DNA from: Desulfobacteraceae bacterium
GTDB lineage: Bacteria > Desulfobacterota > Desulfobacteria > Desulfobacterales > Desulfococcaceae
Length of the DNA: 64,000 nucleotides
Direction: 5' to 3'
Assembly: GCA_011390755.1 (NCBI GenBank)
Contig: JAABRU010000001.1
Location: 1 to 64,000 of the forward strand
Below are positions 48,127 to 56,237 of the stretch, one piece after another. The notes under the pieces were generated by a model. It was not told the DNA's origin and searched no databases. It saw only the letters and a program-made list of their open reading frames with translations. Every line of letters begins with the position of its first letter. Position 1 is the first letter of the stretch. Position numbers and translations under genes: made by a program.

Positions 48127-48250
48127 CCCACATTTCGATTGTCTTTATAACACTTTGAAAATTAAACAGAATTTTTCAAATTTTTTTTACATCGCAAAGA
48201 ATCGGACTCAATAAATTCAGTTTGTTGAATCGCAAAGAGCGAAATGCGGG
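48127..48250. mobile_element. R8 element, 124 bp
   Basis: Ends CCCACATTTCG and CGAAATGCGGG are inverted. The copy at 54972-55095 has the same length and matching inner parts (CAAAGAATCGGA, CAATAAATTCAG, TTGTTGAATC). It sits at the 5-prime end of the alpha/alpha-toroid gene. Confidence 0.75.
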
Positions 48251-49175
48251 TTATGATATTCATAAAACAGGTATATTCATTACCCCGAAAATCAAACGGC
48301 ATGAATACCACCGTATTGTAAAAACATAAAAAGGAGTTTTCATACTGTGAAATAAAAGAATCTGCAAGAAGAATATGGCAGAAAAAAATGGGAACCGAAT
48401 CTTTTCTGCATCCTCTCCGCTTATTTATTATATACTCAGCAGATCAAAAAATTCCGTAATTCCCCCTCTTCCCCCGGCGGGCCAATGCTGTTGATCAAGG
48501 TGCAGGGGCGTATGCAGTGCGCCCTTGCAGGAGTGACATAAGCCGCCGGTTTCCCCTGACAGAGCATTATTCCAATTCCGGAATTCTTTTCATGGAACGG
48601 CGGTATTTTTTTCCGCTGTTTTTTATTTCTCATGGAAAATATGATTGACTTCGTATGCAGCAACAGTTCGGTAATTTTTTCTGATTTCCTGGCTGTAAAA
48701 ATGTAACCTTCTGAAATCATTAAATGAGAATTTTCAGACAGAGATTTATAACAATACTTCGGTAATTTTTTGATATTTTAAATATAAAATATATCAGTTG
48801 GTTAAAAAATGAATCAGCAAATTTTGCAGATAATTTTCCCGCTAAAATATTTTTATCAATGTCAGCTCAATGACATTGAGGTGAAAGTCTCACATACGGT
48901 TGGGGGCAAAGAGACAGCAGTGTCTCCGGCCTGCCGGGTACAGGGACTTACGGCGGGTTGACGTTAAGAGGGCAGCAAATTTGTCTTAACATGGCGTGGC
49001 TGCCGTTAACATGCCGCCCCTGCCGCTTAATTCAGCGTTATGCATCTGAAACAATATGATTTCTAATTCATTGTAATTAAAGTATATTTAAATAATGTGT
49101 GTTAATAATTTACAAATTATCAGAAATTTGATAAGTTACAATAATATTTATTGATAATCCTCTGCACAAAATATT

Positions 49176-49276
49176 GATGGTCTCGTAAAAAGTCCGAAAA
49201 TCAGGTTTTGATACATATTAACAGTCTGATTTTATTAACAGTGATTTTTGAATTTTAGACTTTTTACCGATTCATC
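49176..49276 (-). mobile_element. R1 MITE-like element, 101 bp
   Basis: GATGGTCTCGTAAAAAGTCC to GACTTTTTACCGATTCATC. Perfect 7-bp target duplication AAATATT at 49169-49175 and 49277-49283. Confidence 0.88.
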
Positions 49277-49341
49277 AAATATTGGTAATGAAAAGTATGT
49301 TACTCAAAAAACGACACCCTGATGTCATTTTGGAAACTTGG

Positions 49342-49462
49342 CATTAACGTAAGACTCCCCTCCCTGAGGGAGGGGGAGGGTGGAAACGTCATTAATTGCA
49401 AAGCGTTGTTTACCCCCTCCCGCCGGGGGAGGGAAATATTCTGCTTAAGTCAATGACATTGA
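49342..49462. repeat. R15 palindromic element
   Basis: AAGACTCCCCTCCCTGAGGG to CCCTCCCGCCGGGGGAGGG, ending in AAGTCAATGACATTGACTT, itself a perfect palindrome around one base. Reverse-order relative of 26581-26727. Confidence 0.6.
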
Positions 49463-49598
49463 CTTGGCATCTGTAATTTCAATAAGTTGAAGCTGATAAA
49501 ATATAAAGCCGCCATTTTTTACTGAACAAAAGTATTAGCTTTAACCATTTAAATTTATTTGATTTTATCTGAATCAATATTTGATTTTATCTGAATCA

Positions 49599-49732
49599 AT
49601 GTCAGACAGGTGTCATTTTTTACAGCCGCAAGAACTTGTCAGGTTATCAAAATTATTGAAGATATATTACTTTTAGCAGAAGCTGGTAATGACGGTGAAT
49701 GGGAAGACCGGATTTTATATTTGCCTTTGTGA
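49599..49732 (+). pseudogene. Decayed small ORF (frameshifted)
   Basis: One frame reads MSDRCHFLQPQELVRLSKLL then stops. The other continues, overlapping, as EDILLLAEAGNDGEWEDRIL and ends YLPL plus TGA. Joined by one frameshift they would make a protein of about 44 aa or the tail of a longer one. The family is not recognised. Confidence 0.35.
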
Positions 49733-49784
49733 TGGAAAAACTGAAATATCAATTGAGTGTAACCTTTTTTTGTATTCAACTATT

Positions 49785-49885
49785 GATGAATCGGTAAAAA
49801 GTCCAAATTTCAAAAATCGCTATTAATAAAATCAGAGAGTTAATATGTATCAAAACCTGATTTTCGGACTTTTTACGAGACCATC
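49785..49885 (+). mobile_element. R1 MITE-like element, 101 bp
   Basis: GATGAATCGGTAAAAAGTCC to GGACTTTTTACGAGACCATC. Perfect 7-bp target duplication AACTATT at 49778-49784 and 49886-49892. Confidence 0.9.
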
Positions 49886-50015
49886 AACTATTGATTGTAA
49901 AACCATATATACTGTCCACCGTCATAAACTGCGTTTTTGAAAGCAGGTGTTTTTCAGTTTCGGCCTTACCGGAACCGGTTTCATAAAACTCAGATTATGC
50001 CGGTGCTGAGTATAC

Positions 50016-50131
50016 TAACCCAGGTTGCCACCTGTCGGGGCAGCAACCAAAAATCAGGCAGTTACAGGATACTTAAAAGTTACCGGAACGAAAAATCAGC
50101 AGGTTACGTTTATAGGTGGCAACTTGAGTTA
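50016..50131 (+). mobile_element. R7 element, 116 bp
   Basis: Ends TAACCCAGGTTGCCACCT and AGGTGGCAACTTGAGTTA are inverted repeats of 18 bp with two mismatches. Partner of 13515-13630. Confidence 0.75.
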
Positions 50132-50214
50132 TATTAAGTCCCGGTCATTTCTCCGCCATGCCAGCTCCCGCAGTGATAATCGTCCGGATATCCCAACCCT
50201 TCAAAATACCGCTA

Positions 50215-50352
50215 CCCGAAAAGTTTGCTCCGGATACGGTTTTACGACTGTCCCGGAGTACAGAAACTGTATTTTTGCACGGCATCAGATCCCGGCTGCC
50301 CCATGCAGAAATACAGTTTCTGCACTCCTCCGGAAACTTTTCGATCTGCTGA
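50215..50352. repeat. R9 palindromic repeat
   Basis: CCGAAAAGTTTGCTCCGGATACG to CTCCGGAAACTTTTCGATCT in outline; same plan as 12013-12160, with inverted outer arms and a TGCAGAAATACAGTTTCTGCA inner hairpin (about 50303-50324). Confidence 0.6.
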
Positions 50353-50510
50353 GTATGGATAAATATTATGGATAAATATTATGGATAATATTTTCCCCAT
50401 AGCAGGCAGTCCCCGAAAATATGATTGACTTTGTATGCAAAAAAAAGCAAAGTTATTTTAAAAAATAAAAATCATGCGGAAAAAAAATTTTCCCTTCGGA
50501 CAAAAATTCG

Positions 50511-50636
50511 ATAGTGGATCAAATCCGCTGATTTTTCTGTAAGGGCCTGCTGCATAGCCCCCCGGGCATTCCGCTGCGGGGCCTATGCGATACACCCCTG
50601 CGGTAAAAATTTGATACATCAGCGGATTTGGACAAC
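50511..50636. repeat. R14 palindromic repeat upstream of the channel fusion gene
   Basis: ATAGTGGATCAAATCCGCTG and ATCAGCGGATTTG are inverted arms. The core has GGGGCCTATGCGATACACC. It ends about 30 nt before the start codon and so occupies the 5-prime region of that gene. Confidence 0.6.
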
Positions 50637-50666
50637 TTTCAAAAATTCAAATCGGGTAAAGGAATT

Positions 50667-53600
50667 ATGCAAAAAAAATCTTTCATTCTGCTTTGTTCCG
50701 GTCTTTTGACATCTGTTTTTCTGCTGCCTCTTATTATAACAGGATGCGGCAAATTTTTTAAAGGAGAAGACAACAGCATCCGTATTGCACTGGTCGGCCC
50801 TATGACCGGGCCGAATCAGTCGGTGGGAAAATCCTTTTACCAGGGGGTGAAACTCTGGCTGGATGATTTTAACGCCCGGGGAGGAGTAAACGGCAGAAAA
50901 ATCGAGCTGGATATTTATGATGATCATAATACACCCGAACTGGCAAAGGACGTGGCAGAGCAGAAAATCGGCCCCAGCAGTGTCATTGCCGTTATCGGCC
51001 ACCACTACAGCAGCTGCTCAATCAAAGCGGGGGAGATATATAAAAACCTGGGAATTCCTGCTATCACACCTGCCTCCACCAATGTCAAAGTGACGGAAAA
51101 CAATCCCTGGTATTTCCGCACTTCATTTAATGACAGAACCCAGGGACGTTTTCTTGCCAATTATACCCGTATGGTATTTCAGAAATCTTCTGCCAGCATT
51201 ATTTACGAAAACGATGATTACGGGCGTTATCTTGCCGAAGTTTTTGAAGAAACATCCAAAGAACTGGGAACGGAAATCAAATACAAATGGTCTTTTGATG
51301 CGGATGACCGCCTGCTGGAAGACAGTCTGAAACAGATTGTTTATGATCTCAAATCCAAAGAAGAGGATGCAGGGGTAATTTTTGTCTCCGCCCATGCAGG
51401 CCCGGGCATCAAAATTCTGAAAATCATGAAAGATTCGCTGGTGCTGAACCCGGTGATGGGGCCGGATGCCTTTGCATCCGAGGCATTTCAGAAAGGATTT
51501 GATGTTTATCCCAAAGAAAAACGCAACCCGGGTTATTATACCAACGGCATGTATGTCACCACACCGCTGATTTTTGACACCACCAATGAAAAGGGGCAGA
51601 ATTTCAAAGATCGGTACCAAAACAAATTCGGGGAAAATCCGGGCTGGCATGCGGCATTTGCCTACGATTCCGTCATGGTGCTGACCCATGCACTGGAAAA
51701 TATCACTATGGGCGGCACCATTGACTCCCTGCCGGAAGACCGGCGGAAACTGCGCAATTTTATTGCAAAAATGCTTAGTCTGGATGATGCCGTGGAAGGC
51801 GTTACCGGTCATAATTATTTTGATCAGAAAGGTGATTCCCAAAAACCCGTACTCATCGGTGTGTATAAAAATCAGAATATTGTATCCGCGCTTACCCAGT
51901 TTAAAGCCGTTGCCAATCCTGCAATGCAGGCATTTATGGAATCCAACCGGAAAAAAGACCGGGCGGTTCAGTTTGACGGTCATTATCTTTACCGGATCAA
52001 TGTGGTATATACAGGAGTGGAGATGCTTGAAATCCGGGATCTGAATTTTAAAGATCTGACCTGCACCCTTGATTTTTTCCTGTGGTTCCGCTTTCAGGGA
52101 GATCCGGAACTGAATCAGTGGAATTTTCTCAATGCTGTGGAACCCCTGCCCGAAGAAGGCGCGCAGGTGGGCAAAGGGGAGGCCTGCGGTGTCAATATTG
52201 AAAAAGTGCGGGAAAAAATCAGCAAAGACGGACTGCATTATTATCTGTACCGGATCCGGGGGCGGTTCCGCATGGATTTTCTCCCCGGCCGGTTTACCTA
52301 TGGGGAACACATGGCGGGCCTGAGTTTCCGCCATCCGGAACTGGACCGCAACAACCTGATTTATGTAAAAGATGTGCTGGGGATGGGGGAAATCCACGAT
52401 GAAAAGGATATTCTGGCAAAAATGGACAGGGATCAGGTTCTCAGTCCGGCAGTTGACTGGAAAATCAGACAGATATCTTTTTTTCAGGATATTGTGGAAG
52501 AAATCTCCAAGGGAAATCCGGACTATCTGAATATTACCGGCAGTTCTGTCAGTTATTCCCGTTTTAATGTGGGCATCCGGATTGTGCCCAACAAACTTAT
52601 TCTCCGCAACCTGATTCCCCGGAACTGGGTGATTTTTATTCTGCTTTCCTCTCTTTTTCTTTTCTGCCTGATTCCCTTTCTGGGCAGAAGCGAAAGGTTT
52701 CATTCTTATTCCAGAATACTCTGGTTTTTCCACTTTCTGTCGGCCTTTCCCCTGCTGATGTCCTGGGAATTTTTTGCCATTGACCGTCTGGGGGGCACTT
52801 ATTATCTGGATCCGGTCATTCTGATGATAAATATCCTGTGGTGGTTTATTCCGGCCTACTTTATCAGCAAAGGTGCGAGAATGTTTCTCTGGGATCCCCT
52901 GGAAGAAAAAACCGGGCGCAATGTGCCCCATGTGGTAAAAAATGCCATGAGCCTTATCATATATACCCTGGCATTTTTCGGAATCATTGCCTTTGTTTTT
53001 GATGAACCCCTGACCAGTCTGCTGGCCAGTACGGGGGTGGCGGCCATGATTCTGGGGCTGGCTTTGCAGGTGAACATATCCAATATTTTCTCCGGAATCG
53101 CCATCAATGTGGAGCGACCCTTCCGGGTGGGCGACTGGGTAAAAATCAATGATTTCAAGGAAGGGCGGGTGATAGACATCAACTGGCGCACCACCCGCAT
53201 CAAAACACGGGATGATACCATTCTGTGCATCTCCAACAGCCAGGCCTCCGAATCCGTGATTGAAAATTTCAGTTATCCCGATGACGGTTTTTTTCAGTAT
53301 TTTACCATTCATGCGGATCCCGTCCATCCGCCGGAGCGGGTGAAAAAAATTCTGCTGGATGCGGCTCTTTCCACCGAAGGAGTGGAAAAAGAACCGCCGC
53401 CCTCCACCCGTTTTCTGGGACTCACGGCCGGCATGACCGGGCAGAGCAAATCCTGGGCAGCCAATTACCTGATTTCCATCTATGTCCGGGATTACGGCAA
53501 AAAATTTGCCTATAATGAGGCCCTGTGGGACAATATCTGGACCCATATGCGCCAGGCCGGCATCCGCCATGTCATTGACCGCCAGGAAATGCATATGGTG

Positions 53601-54146
53601 GTGGAAGGCATTAAAAAGAAAAAAGCACTGCCGGATCGATCCCTTGCCCTCCTGCAGGAAATATATCTTTTTGAACCTTTCTCCGAAGATGACAGGGTAT
53701 ATCTCAGCAAAAAGATGAAACGCCATCATTTTTTCCCCGGAGAAAGCATTTTCCGCCAGGGAGATTCCGGAAATTCTCTCTTTGTTATTGAGGAAGGGGT
53801 TGTGGCTGTCCGGGTCCGTTTTAACAATACCGGAAAAGCGGTGGAAGTGGCCCGCATGGGAGCGGGAAATGTTTTTGGAGAAATGGGACTGCTGACCGGC
53901 GAAACCCGCACAGCCACCATTATATCTGTTACAGAAACCTGGCTGTATGAAGTGACCAAAGATGATATTGCCCCGCTGATTGAAAAGGAACCCAGAATTT
54001 CACGGCGGATGAGCGATATTCTCACGGAAAGAAAGATGGCAACCGAAGCCCGGCGGCATACCGAAGAAGTGCAGGATTTTGATAAAGAAACCATTGCCGC
54101 TCAGATATTCAACAAAATCCAGAATTTTTTCGGGTTTGCAAAATAA
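50667..54146 (+). CDS. Receptor-channel fusion: LIVBP-like domain, middle domain, MscS channel, cyclic-nucleotide-binding domain
   Basis: A 1159-aa protein from the ATG at 50667 (AAAGGA 4 nt upstream). Residues 1-27 are a lipoprotein-like signal ending ITGC. Residues 35-410 are a periplasmic branched-chain-amino-acid-receptor domain (IRIALVGPMTGPNQSVGKSF, VIAVIGHHYSSCSIKAGEIY, AFAYDSVMVLTHALEN). Residues 430-650 are beta-rich (INVVYTGVEMLEIRDLNFKD, LTCTLDFFLWFRFQGD, YRIRGRFRMDFLPGRFTYGE) and may resemble a pentameric-channel ectodomain. About five membrane helices follow (652-816), the last being the MscS pore TGVAAMILGLALQVNISNIF, then the MscS beta domain (ERPFRVGDWVKINDFKEGRV). Residues 1000-1130 bind cyclic nucleotide (FGEMGLLTGETRTATI). 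It probably gates ions in response to an external ligand and a cytoplasmic nucleotide. Confidence 0.9.
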   Translation: MQKKSFILLCSGLLTSVFLLPLIITGCGKFFKGEDNSIRIALVGPMTGPNQSVGKSFYQGVKLWLDDFNARGGVNGRKIELDIYDDHNTPELAKDVAEQKIGPSSVIAVIGHHYSSCSIKAGEIYKNLGIPAITPASTNVKVTENNPWYFRTSFNDRTQGRFLANYTRMVFQKSSASIIYENDDYGRYLAEVFEETSKELGTEIKYKWSFDADDRLLEDSLKQIVYDLKSKEEDAGVIFVSAHAGPGIKILKIMKDSLVLNPVMGPDAFASEAFQKGFDVYPKEKRNPGYYTNGMYVTTPLIFDTTNEKGQNFKDRYQNKFGENPGWHAAFAYDSVMVLTHALENITMGGTIDSLPEDRRKLRNFIAKMLSLDDAVEGVTGHNYFDQKGDSQKPVLIGVYKNQNIVSALTQFKAVANPAMQAFMESNRKKDRAVQFDGHYLYRINVVYTGVEMLEIRDLNFKDLTCTLDFFLWFRFQGDPELNQWNFLNAVEPLPEEGAQVGKGEACGVNIEKVREKISKDGLHYYLYRIRGRFRMDFLPGRFTYGEHMAGLSFRHPELDRNNLIYVKDVLGMGEIHDEKDILAKMDRDQVLSPAVDWKIRQISFFQDIVEEISKGNPDYLNITGSSVSYSRFNVGIRIVPNKLILRNLIPRNWVIFILLSSLFLFCLIPFLGRSERFHSYSRILWFFHFLSAFPLLMSWEFFAIDRLGGTYYLDPVILMINILWWFIPAYFISKGARMFLWDPLEEKTGRNVPHVVKNAMSLIIYTLAFFGIIAFVFDEPLTSLLASTGVAAMILGLALQVNISNIFSGIAINVERPFRVGDWVKINDFKEGRVIDINWRTTRIKTRDDTILCISNSQASESVIENFSYPDDGFFQYFTIHADPVHPPERVKKILLDAALSTEGVEKEPPPSTRFLGLTAGMTGQSKSWAANYLISIYVRDYGKKFAYNEALWDNIWTHMRQAGIRHVIDRQEMHMVVEGIKKKKALPDRSLALLQEIYLFEPFSEDDRVYLSKKMKRHHFFPGESIFRQGDSGNSLFVIEEGVVAVRVRFNNTGKAVEVARMGAGNVFGEMGLLTGETRTATIISVTETWLYEVTKDDIAPLIEKEPRISRRMSDILTERKMATEARRHTEEVQDFDKETIAAQIFNKIQNFFGFAK

Positions 54147-54654
54147 GGTGATTTCCTGAAAAAAATGCAGCAAAAAAGTGCCGGACGGGAAGTTTGGCAG
54201 TGTCTGACAGCCGCTGCCTTCATGTTTTTTTGTGACTGCATATCAATATCATTGACTTAGGGACCCGGTAAGAAATAAATCCTCCGGAAATATCCTGCGG
54301 ATAAACAGAAACTGTGCATTCCGTCCCCTGATCAGATGAAACGGGGCAGTTATTTTTTGCTGAGTGCCTTAAGTCAATGACATTGGACTGCATATCATGG
54401 CTGTTTATATGAAAGTCCTTCTGTAGAGACGCACGGCGTGCGTCTCTCTGCGGTGTGCGTCTTCTGCAGAGACGCACACCGTGCGTCTCTACGGGATGGC
54501 ACTTTCATGCTTCGCTGTGAGTCACGGCTCATGGCGGTTTATATGAAAGTGTCTGCGAAAAACCGGCATCCGCCTTCATTTTCGCACTCCGCGCAGCTTT
54601 CATGCTTCGCTGTGAGTCACGGCTCATGGCCGTTTATAAAAAGGAGGAATGATT
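54147..54654. other. Repeat cluster between the channel gene and rubredoxin
   Basis: Contains a partial R5 (54147-54212), an R6 (54257-54371), R11 pieces (54391-54416, 54502-54550, 54597-54640) and two GAGACGCACGGCGTGCGTCT-type palindromes (about 54425-54500). No gene. Confidence 0.65.
54257..54371 (+). repeat. R6 element, diverged form, 115 bp
   Basis: TTAGGGACCCGGTAAGAAAT to TTTTTTGCTGAGTGCCTTA. The inverted ends extend outward as CATTGACTTA and TAAGTCAATG. It matches 56123-56237 (reverse). Confidence 0.7.
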
Positions 54655-55180: not shown

Positions 55181-55951
55181 TTATTTTTTCCAGTCTTCCA
55201 GGCCGTATTTACTTAAAATTTGCTTTAATTCACCCGATTTCCGTAATTCTGCTATGCCCGCTGAAAGAATTTCCGCATATTTTTCTGATTGCGGCAGGGC
55301 AGGAGAAAATGCAATATATGCTTTTTCCGGTTTTACTGCAACACCTCCGACCCTTACCTGGCCGTTTACTTCCATCCGGTGCGCAAGATACCAAAATACC
55401 GGTTCCGTCGCAATGATTGCATCAAGTCGGCCGGCCAGAAGTTTTTTGATGTTTCTTTCAAGGGGATTGGCACCATGAATAATTTGAATTTTTTCAGCAT
55501 TATTCCTGTGCCTTGATATATAAGCATCAATTTCATCCAGGTAGGAATAACCGGCAATCACACCCAGTGTGATTTCTTCAAGTGAAGAAATGCCTGTATA
55601 AGTCCAGTTTCTGTTTTTTTGGGTAAATATTGAAAAACCGATCATTGCCAGTTCATTTTCAGGAAAAATAAAATCAGGACAGTCTTTATAATAAGCACCG
55701 ACTGCCCCGTGAATTTTTCCTTCTCTGACCATTTTCAGGGTTCGGTTCCAGGGAATATTTTCATATTCCACTGTATGACCGGCTCTGCCAAAAATTTTTT
55801 TTGCAATATCAATCATAAATCCTTCCTGTTCACTATTTGCCCTGCAATTGACAGGGCACCAGTTATCAGCAGCAATGATAATATGAGCGGCATAAAGCGG
55901 GACATGTATAAATAATAAGTATAAAAGGGCTATTATTAATATTTTCCTCAT
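55181..55951 (-). CDS. Periplasmic solute-binding protein, family 3
   Basis: A 256-aa secreted protein: signal peptide (LIIALLYLLFIHVPLYAAHI), then a family-3 extracellular binding fold with EGFMIDIAKKIFGRAGHTVE, YENIPWNRTLKMVREGKIHG, LGVIAGYSYLDEIDAYI, LLAGRLDAIIATEPVFWYLA and AEILSAGIAELRKSGELKQI. It would bind amino acids or similar polar solutes. No permease or ATPase gene lies beside it, so it may feed a distant transporter or act as a sensor. AAAGGAGG precedes the ATG. Confidence 0.9.
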   Translation of the reverse strand: MRKILIIALLYLLFIHVPLYAAHIIIAADNWCPVNCRANSEQEGFMIDIAKKIFGRAGHTVEYENIPWNRTLKMVREGKIHGAVGAYYKDCPDFIFPENELAMIGFSIFTQKNRNWTYTGISSLEEITLGVIAGYSYLDEIDAYISRHRNNAEKIQIIHGANPLERNIKKLLAGRLDAIIATEPVFWYLAHRMEVNGQVRVGGVAVKPEKAYIAFSPALPQSEKYAEILSAGIAELRKSGELKQILSKYGLEDWKK

Positions 55952-56122
55952 AAAATTCCTCCTTTGTGATTCACTCCGTTTATCCGGTGAATCTGCCTTC
56001 CCTGAGTTTGGCAGATTATGCAGTGGTGCATGGGCAACCCAGTGACTTGTCAGTCTGTTTTTATGGTATGCATTGCTTTTATATTAAAAAAGTTTAAGCA
56101 GATGTTCCGGACAACCGTCATT

Positions 56123-56237
56123 TTAGGCACTCAGCAAAAAATAACTGCCCCGTTTCATCTGATTGGGGGACGGAATGCACAGTTTCTGTTTATCCGCAGA
56201 ATATTTCCGGAGGATTTATTTCTTACCGGGTTCCTTA
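56123..56237 (-). repeat. R6 element, diverged form, 115 bp
   Basis: TTAGGCACTCAGCAAAAAAT to TCTTACCGGGTTCCTTA; reverse copy of 54257-54371. Confidence 0.7.

Follow-up and report, generated by a model that had tools for sequence, protein, structure and literature searches.

A bacterial protein that carries a ligand-binding head of the pentameric ligand-gated channel type on an MscS pore

What is the function of a protein that combines a periplasmic receptor domain, a mechanosensitive-type pore and a cyclic-nucleotide sensor in one chain? The question is raised by a gene in the window, the whole 64,000-nucleotide stretch of Desulfobacteraceae DNA analysed here, in which positions 50667-54146 of the forward strand form a real, intact open reading frame (ORF) of 1159 amino acids, running without interruption from an ATG at 50667 to a stop codon at 54144-54146. 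Between the receptor domain and the pore lies a domain of the pentameric ligand-gated ion channel (pLGIC) type, making the protein a natural cross of two unrelated ion-channel families in one bacterial polypeptide. Sequence and predicted structure together indicate that it is quite probably an inner-membrane channel of the MscS type, gated by ligand and modulated by cyclic nucleotide.

Residues ~420-650 are left unnamed by Pfam and by NCBIfam, and the original prediction, made without database searches, had correctly described a beta-rich middle domain here while giving it no identity. A search of 58 related genomes yielded proteins of 728-816 amino acids, from the same bacterial order as the gene, that match residues 1-670 but have four different C-terminal transmembrane (TM) helices; the searched genomes also held full-length homologs. 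These shorter relatives bear YPFDxQ-like motifs, one of them passes the Pfam cut-off for Neur_chan_memb, and the PDB matches listed for their profile are exclusively ELIC (the best, 1.6e-12), GLIC (1e-9) and pentameric-channel chimeras. They are fusions of a type I periplasmic binding protein (PBP-I) domain to a pLGIC, of the kind already described in bacteria (Tasneem et al., 2004, PMC549065), and share with the 1159-residue protein the order of PBP-I and then Cys-loop-type ligand-binding domain, with homology over ~670 residues. The middle domain aligns by hhalign with the extracellular domain (ECD) of these PBP-pLGICs over 202 columns (probability 100, E 7.8e-54) and with stand-alone bacterial pLGICs at E 3.4e-18; a scan with the middle-domain profile also reaches stand-alone bacterial pLGICs of 368-431 amino acids, with E values down to 1e-16. 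An AlphaFold2 model of the domain, based on an alignment that contained both MscS-type and PBP-pLGIC sequences, adopts the pLGIC/AChBP beta-sandwich (predicted local distance difference test, pLDDT, 80; predicted template modelling score, pTM, 0.75). Foldseek returned 1103 PDB matches to this model at E<=1e-3, and each of the best 50 of the 1103 is an AChBP, an ELIC extracellular domain or a GABA-A receptor. With VIA-align, the model matches ELIC at Z 14.9 (root-mean-square deviation 2.7 Å, 158 residues) and a native GABA-A receptor at Z 14.7, and all 50 matches listed are pLGICs. The middle domain (about 433-641) is an extracellular ligand-binding domain of the Cys-loop/pLGIC type, homologous to nicotinic/GABA-A-type domains; the earlier wording, "convergent with neurotransmitter receptors", was wrong for this part of the protein. 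Because the middle domain is a ligand-binding domain, the protein has at least three candidate ligand-sensing modules, and the predicted dual input holds as an architecture with a periplasmic and a cytoplasmic side but not as a number of inputs. The features of the gene are as follows.

50667-54146, forward strand: whole gene, PBP-I domain, pLGIC extracellular domain, five-TM MscS channel and cyclic-nucleotide-binding domain (CNBD) (ORF list, Pfam, identical architecture in other genomes)
50667-50747, forward strand: N-terminal hydrophobic segment with lipobox ITGC, residues 1-27 (sequence; by alignment, Cys in part of the family)
50772-51902, forward strand: LIVBP/PBP-I ligand-binding domain, residues 36-412 (Pfam, PDB sequence matches, LivJ structure match, family conservation)
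51963-52589, forward strand: Cys-loop/pLGIC-type extracellular ligand-binding domain, residues 433-641 (AlphaFold2 with Foldseek and VIA-align; hhalign to PBP-pLGICs and stand-alone pLGICs)
52293-52310, forward strand: pLGIC Pro-loop position, degenerate, FTYGEH against YPFDxQ, residues 543-548 (family alignment)
52620-53114, forward strand: five transmembrane helices, residues 652-816 (full-length AlphaFold2 model, hydropathy)
53010-53114, forward strand: MscS pore helix (TM3 equivalent), residues 782-816 (AlphaFold2, alignment)
53115-53591, forward strand: MscS beta domain and C-terminal domain, residues 817-975 (Pfam PF00924, PF21082)
53634-54044, forward strand: CNBD, residues 990-1126, with the phosphate-binding cassette at 1070-1085, E1072 and R1081 (Pfam PF00027, cassette conservation)

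Pfam profiles find each of the three parts that had been proposed before: LIVBP-type receptor, CNBD and MscS pore region. The four domain matches, all above curated cut-offs, are Peripla_BP_6 at 37-389 (6.6e-42), MS_channel_2nd at 804-869 (8.4e-18; PF00924, 64.7 bits against a cut-off of 20.2), MS_channel_3rd at 885-967 (9.4e-5) and cNMP_binding at 1020-1107 (2.4e-20; PF00027, 72.7 bits). A fusion of two genes by sequencing or assembly error was considered and rejected, since the identical single-ORF architecture recurs in many other genomes, among them that of Desulfonema magnum, whose chromosome is a single contig (L078/L085, 1159 codons). When the middle-domain alignment was run against 84,980 species genomes, it gave 127 encoding stretches, from which 78 loci were kept. 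Together with loci found in the sets of 58 and 389 related genomes, these form a census of distinct sequences, in which near-copies may remain, of 43 PBP-ECD-MscS-CNBD, 47 PBP-ECD-MscS (five of them cut by the locus end) and 12 PBP-ECD-4TM proteins. The middle-domain alignment was needed for this, as a single full-length protein used as query in named genomes gave no match. The 90 distinct MscS-type homologs span six phyla, with hosts including Desulfobacterales, relatives of Thioploca, Beggiatoa and Thiomargarita, Leptospiraceae, Azospirillum, Skermanella, Methylococcaceae, an Oscillatoriales cyanobacterium, Sulfuricurvum and SAR324; many of the host genomes are metagenome bins and some belong to cultured species. 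The PBP and MscS parts were confirmed by Pfam in eight members sampled across this range. It is reasonably likely that these proteins constitute a widespread, unrecognised class of ligand-gated channel, in which a ligand-binding domain of the neurotransmitter-receptor type gates an MscS pore.

How the two modules came together is approached through trees. A maximum-likelihood ECD tree, read with stand-alone pLGICs as the outgroup, gathers all 90 MscS-type sequences in one group (support 100/94) and the PBP-pLGICs in a separate one (93/93), the two being sisters. A quick tree of the PBP domain nests the PBP-pLGICs within the MscS-type proteins, at odds with the ECD tree on the direction of the pore swap. 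The PBP-I domains of both kinds cluster apart from the sampled ABC proteins (approximate likelihood-ratio test 98).

The pore itself separates the two groups. The PBP-pLGICs retain the four-TM pLGIC pore, whereas in the 1159-residue protein the four-helix M1-M4 domain was not found by Pfam or AlphaFold2, and an MscS channel stands in its place. Helices one and two of the five were considered as a remnant of the pLGIC pore and ruled out (hhalign against a pLGIC four-TM profile, probability 0.7%). In pLGICs, the Pro-loop proline and the acid following it dock on the four-TM pore. The family alignment has proline at this position in 12/12 PBP-pLGICs versus 8/90 MscS-type proteins (T544 in the 1159-residue protein), and D/E after it in 11/12 versus 8/90. 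To judge from this alignment, the interface residue was lost along with the pLGIC pore that it served. ELIC, GLIC, GABA-A and nicotinic receptors have an extracellular domain of the same fold and origin as that of the protein but differ from it in the same respects: it has no M1-M4, no Pro-loop and a pore of another superfamily. Coupling of ligand domain and pore in Cys-loop receptors is usually ascribed to a special docked interface, the Pro-loop on M2-M3. Here that interface has been removed and the ligand domain kept, mounted on an entirely different kind of pore; the lineage has been successful enough to spread to several phyla, and the question of coupling becomes testable with natural proteins. 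DeCLIC, a deltaproteobacterial channel (PMC9897478), likewise carries additional N-terminal periplasmic domains beside its pLGIC ECD, but these are beta-rich rather than PBP-I, and its pore is a pLGIC pore.

Is the MscS part a pore? The full-length AlphaFold2 model has helices at 652-674, 676-708, 714-749, 755-777 and 782-816, five TM helices of which the last is the MscS pore helix, in agreement with the earlier placement of MscS helices and pore at 652-816; simple hydropathy gives five TM helices in 68/90 homologs. Among the MscS channels of the PDB, YnaI matches best, and it also has a five-TM layout; YnaI/MscK-type channels share the MscS core but are without ligand-binding periplasmic domains of the PBP-I/pLGIC kind. 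An odd number of TM helices leaves the two outer domains on the periplasmic side and the CNBD on the cytoplasmic side. Combined with the N-terminal signal and lipobox, it would make residues ~28-645 periplasmic and the MscS cage, like the CNBD, cytoplasmic. The predicted lipobox is present (ITGC, Cys27), though a lipobox-like cysteine occurs in only ~7/18 aligned homologs as judged by eye, the others having just an N-terminal hydrophobic segment. In our alignment, the nearly invariant M794 and the invariant L798 fall on the MscS gate positions L105 and L109, and further pore-helix positions (N806, G810 and others) are, like L798, invariant or nearly so. Such conservation argues against a non-conducting receptor, in which the MscS part would be a membrane scaffold and the periplasmic ligand would alter the behaviour of the CNBD or of a partner. 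The CNBD of 43/90 homologs is consistent with a receptor of this kind, but the CNBD-less forms would be without output, and we regard it as distinctly improbable.

The outermost domain finds its best matches among LivJ-type proteins, with LivJ (4gnr) at Z 42.3 in the structure comparison. PDB sequence matches align S115, T138, Y185 and D267 with LivJ S79, T102, Y150 and E226, residues that touch the amino-acid ligand. Among the 90 homologs, S115 is conserved in 76/90, Y185 in 70/90 and T138 in 58/90, and these residues make an amino-acid-like ligand plausible for the PBP-I domain of the 1159-residue protein. They also bear on the view that the protein is a purely mechanosensitive osmotic valve, whose periplasmic domains serve as scaffold or cell-wall spacer without a ligand signal and whose CNBD only modulates. 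MscS relatives such as MscK have large periplasmic parts, the family conserves its MscS pore, beta and C-terminal domains well, and the titles of bCNG papers cited in PMC4560390 include a tension-gated member. However, a spacer would hardly keep its PBP ligand-site residues (S115 and Y185 above all) or consist of two consecutive ligand-binding folds, and the host genome already has five other MscS-family genes; a simple valve is therefore unlikely. The likeness to ionotropic glutamate receptors drawn in the original prediction applies to their outer-end PBP-I domain, the amino-terminal domain, and not to the agonist-binding one. The agonist domain of those receptors is a PBP-II fold with an inserted pore, and the Pfam scan of the 1159-residue protein gave no PBP-II or Lig_chan family.

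The same closeness to LivJ-type proteins could point to a sensor subunit for ABC-type uptake, that is, a membrane-anchored substrate-binding protein. The homolog of Azospirillum sp. B510, WP_042444963.1 (L162:3902-7270, plasmid pAB510b), is indeed labelled merely "ABC transporter substrate-binding protein" in the database, yet it has PBP, ECD, MscS and CNBD. Moreover, neither a branched-chain permease nor an ATPase was found near the 1159-codon gene among the nearest genes, which alone were profiled, the PBP is fused to a channel instead of being a separate periplasmic protein, and the ECD, MscS and CNBD would go unexplained; such a role is very improbable. Labels of this sort suggest that ion channels are hidden in databases. 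Another Azospirillum homolog, a CNBD-less open frame of 1114 codons, lies on a plasmid of A. brasilense Sp7 (L163:3581-6922), and the genus is cultivable.

The CNBD carries the motif FGEMGLLTGETRTATI at residues 1070-1085, and among CNBD-bearing homologs its cassette keeps E1072 in 16/16 and R1081 in 15/16. Eleven class III nucleotidyl cyclase domains are encoded in the host genome. The bCNG channels, which to our knowledge are without PBP-I or pLGIC domain, have the same MscS pore, C-terminal CNBD and cassette Glu/Arg. Channels of this MscS + CNBD type are already known (Caldwell et al., 2010, as cited in PMC4560390). The presence of the CNBD switches ~nine times on the tree, indicating that it was repeatedly gained or lost. 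The CNBD also weakly matches Pycsar effector models, as would an anti-phage effector of that cyclic-nucleotide kind, with a channel that opens on an infection signal. The match is confined to the CNBD (1013-1130) and does not extend over a whole effector model, a cyclase gene was not found among the examined neighbours, and half of the family is without the CNBD, all of which leaves an anti-phage role with hardly any probability.

As a ligand-gated channel, the protein would work by closure of the PBP-I domain around an amino acid or a comparable small molecule; closure would alter the pLGIC-type domains, which are fused directly to the first, peripheral MscS helix, and this helix, once shifted, would move the MscS pore towards opening. 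The ECD would act as a coupling or ligand module from one channel superfamily on the pore of another, while the ease of opening would depend on cAMP or cGMP bound at the CNBD. Several observations weigh against this reading. The pLGICs are pentameric whereas the MscS-family PDB entries among the matches mostly have 7 chains each, so either one module departs from its usual symmetry or the two rings do not match. The full-length model is of moderate confidence only (pLDDT 76.5, pTM 0.52), hence its domain packing is unreliable. A profile of MscS-type middle domains alone matched nothing in the PDB by sequence and, with PBP-pLGIC relatives added, the matches listed were only ELIC/GLIC and weak (E 0.055); the pLGIC assignment thus depends on the fold together with the stepwise link from MscS-type to PBP-pLGIC to ELIC. 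The D267 position is D in only 45/90 homologs, so that ligands probably differ within the family, and the CNBD is absent from about half of it (47/90), so that the basic mechanism can do without cyclic nucleotide.

If chemical gating is true, these proteins would be a new class of ligand-gated channel, and a pLGIC extracellular domain would be able to drive the pore of an unrelated superfamily, whichever the symmetry: a heptamer might give the first seven-fold ring of pLGIC type, a pentamer would be a five-fold MscS. The family suggests that some MscS-family channels may be chemically gated receptors for amino-acid-like signals. In the literature searched (open-access, with most subscription papers outside it), no description of a pLGIC-MscS fusion was found, and mechanosensitive channels are not mentioned by Jaiteh et al. 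(2016, PMC4795631). What appears new, no paper on it having been found, is the pLGIC head with an MscS pore in one protein, its parts (PBP-pLGIC, MscS-CNBD) being known.

Heads and pores of the two kinds also travel together unfused, as PBP-pLGIC genes adjoin MscK-like genes in five loci (L027, in the host genome, L172, L173, L174 and L175), a neighbourhood that speaks for the ligand-gated reading. In L027:4882-13418 and in L173:6491-14981 (Desulfonema magnum), the order is PBP-pLGIC, MscK-like, PBP-pLGIC; the MscK-like gene has 1276-1302 codons and a 16-base open-frame overlap on one side. At least nine Thiotrichaceae-type loci (L089, L092, L097, L100, L102, L109, L116, L134 and L135) contain tandem MscS-type genes on the same strand, a CNBD-less copy and then a CNBD copy, an arrangement which suggests that such pairs may form hetero-oligomers. 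A conserved neighbourhood places a protein of ~915-1002 amino acids with a PBP-I domain directly upstream of PBP-pLGIC genes (L028:9213-12188, L029:7073-9823, L038:2913-5918, L042:3179-5929, L044:4447-7221 and L046:5825-8569). In L028, on which Pfam was tested, this upstream protein has SBP_bac_5 and PBP-I in one chain, a fusion of two classes of periplasmic binding domain.

Around the 1159-codon gene, a gene for a periplasmic protein of the SBP_bac_3 (PBP-II) family lies ~1 kb downstream on the opposite strand (55181-55951, reverse); PBP-II genes have been reported to adjoin bacterial pLGIC genes (Tasneem et al., 2004, PMC549065). Upstream, ~2.4 kb of repeat-rich DNA (48200-50660) is nearly without ORFs. 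Two pairs of long, near-perfect inverted repeats lie near the gene, one at 54259-54372 and 56122-56235 (114 nt, 96%) and the other at 49174-49278 and 49783-49887 (105 nt, 94%); they look like small mobile or palindromic elements.

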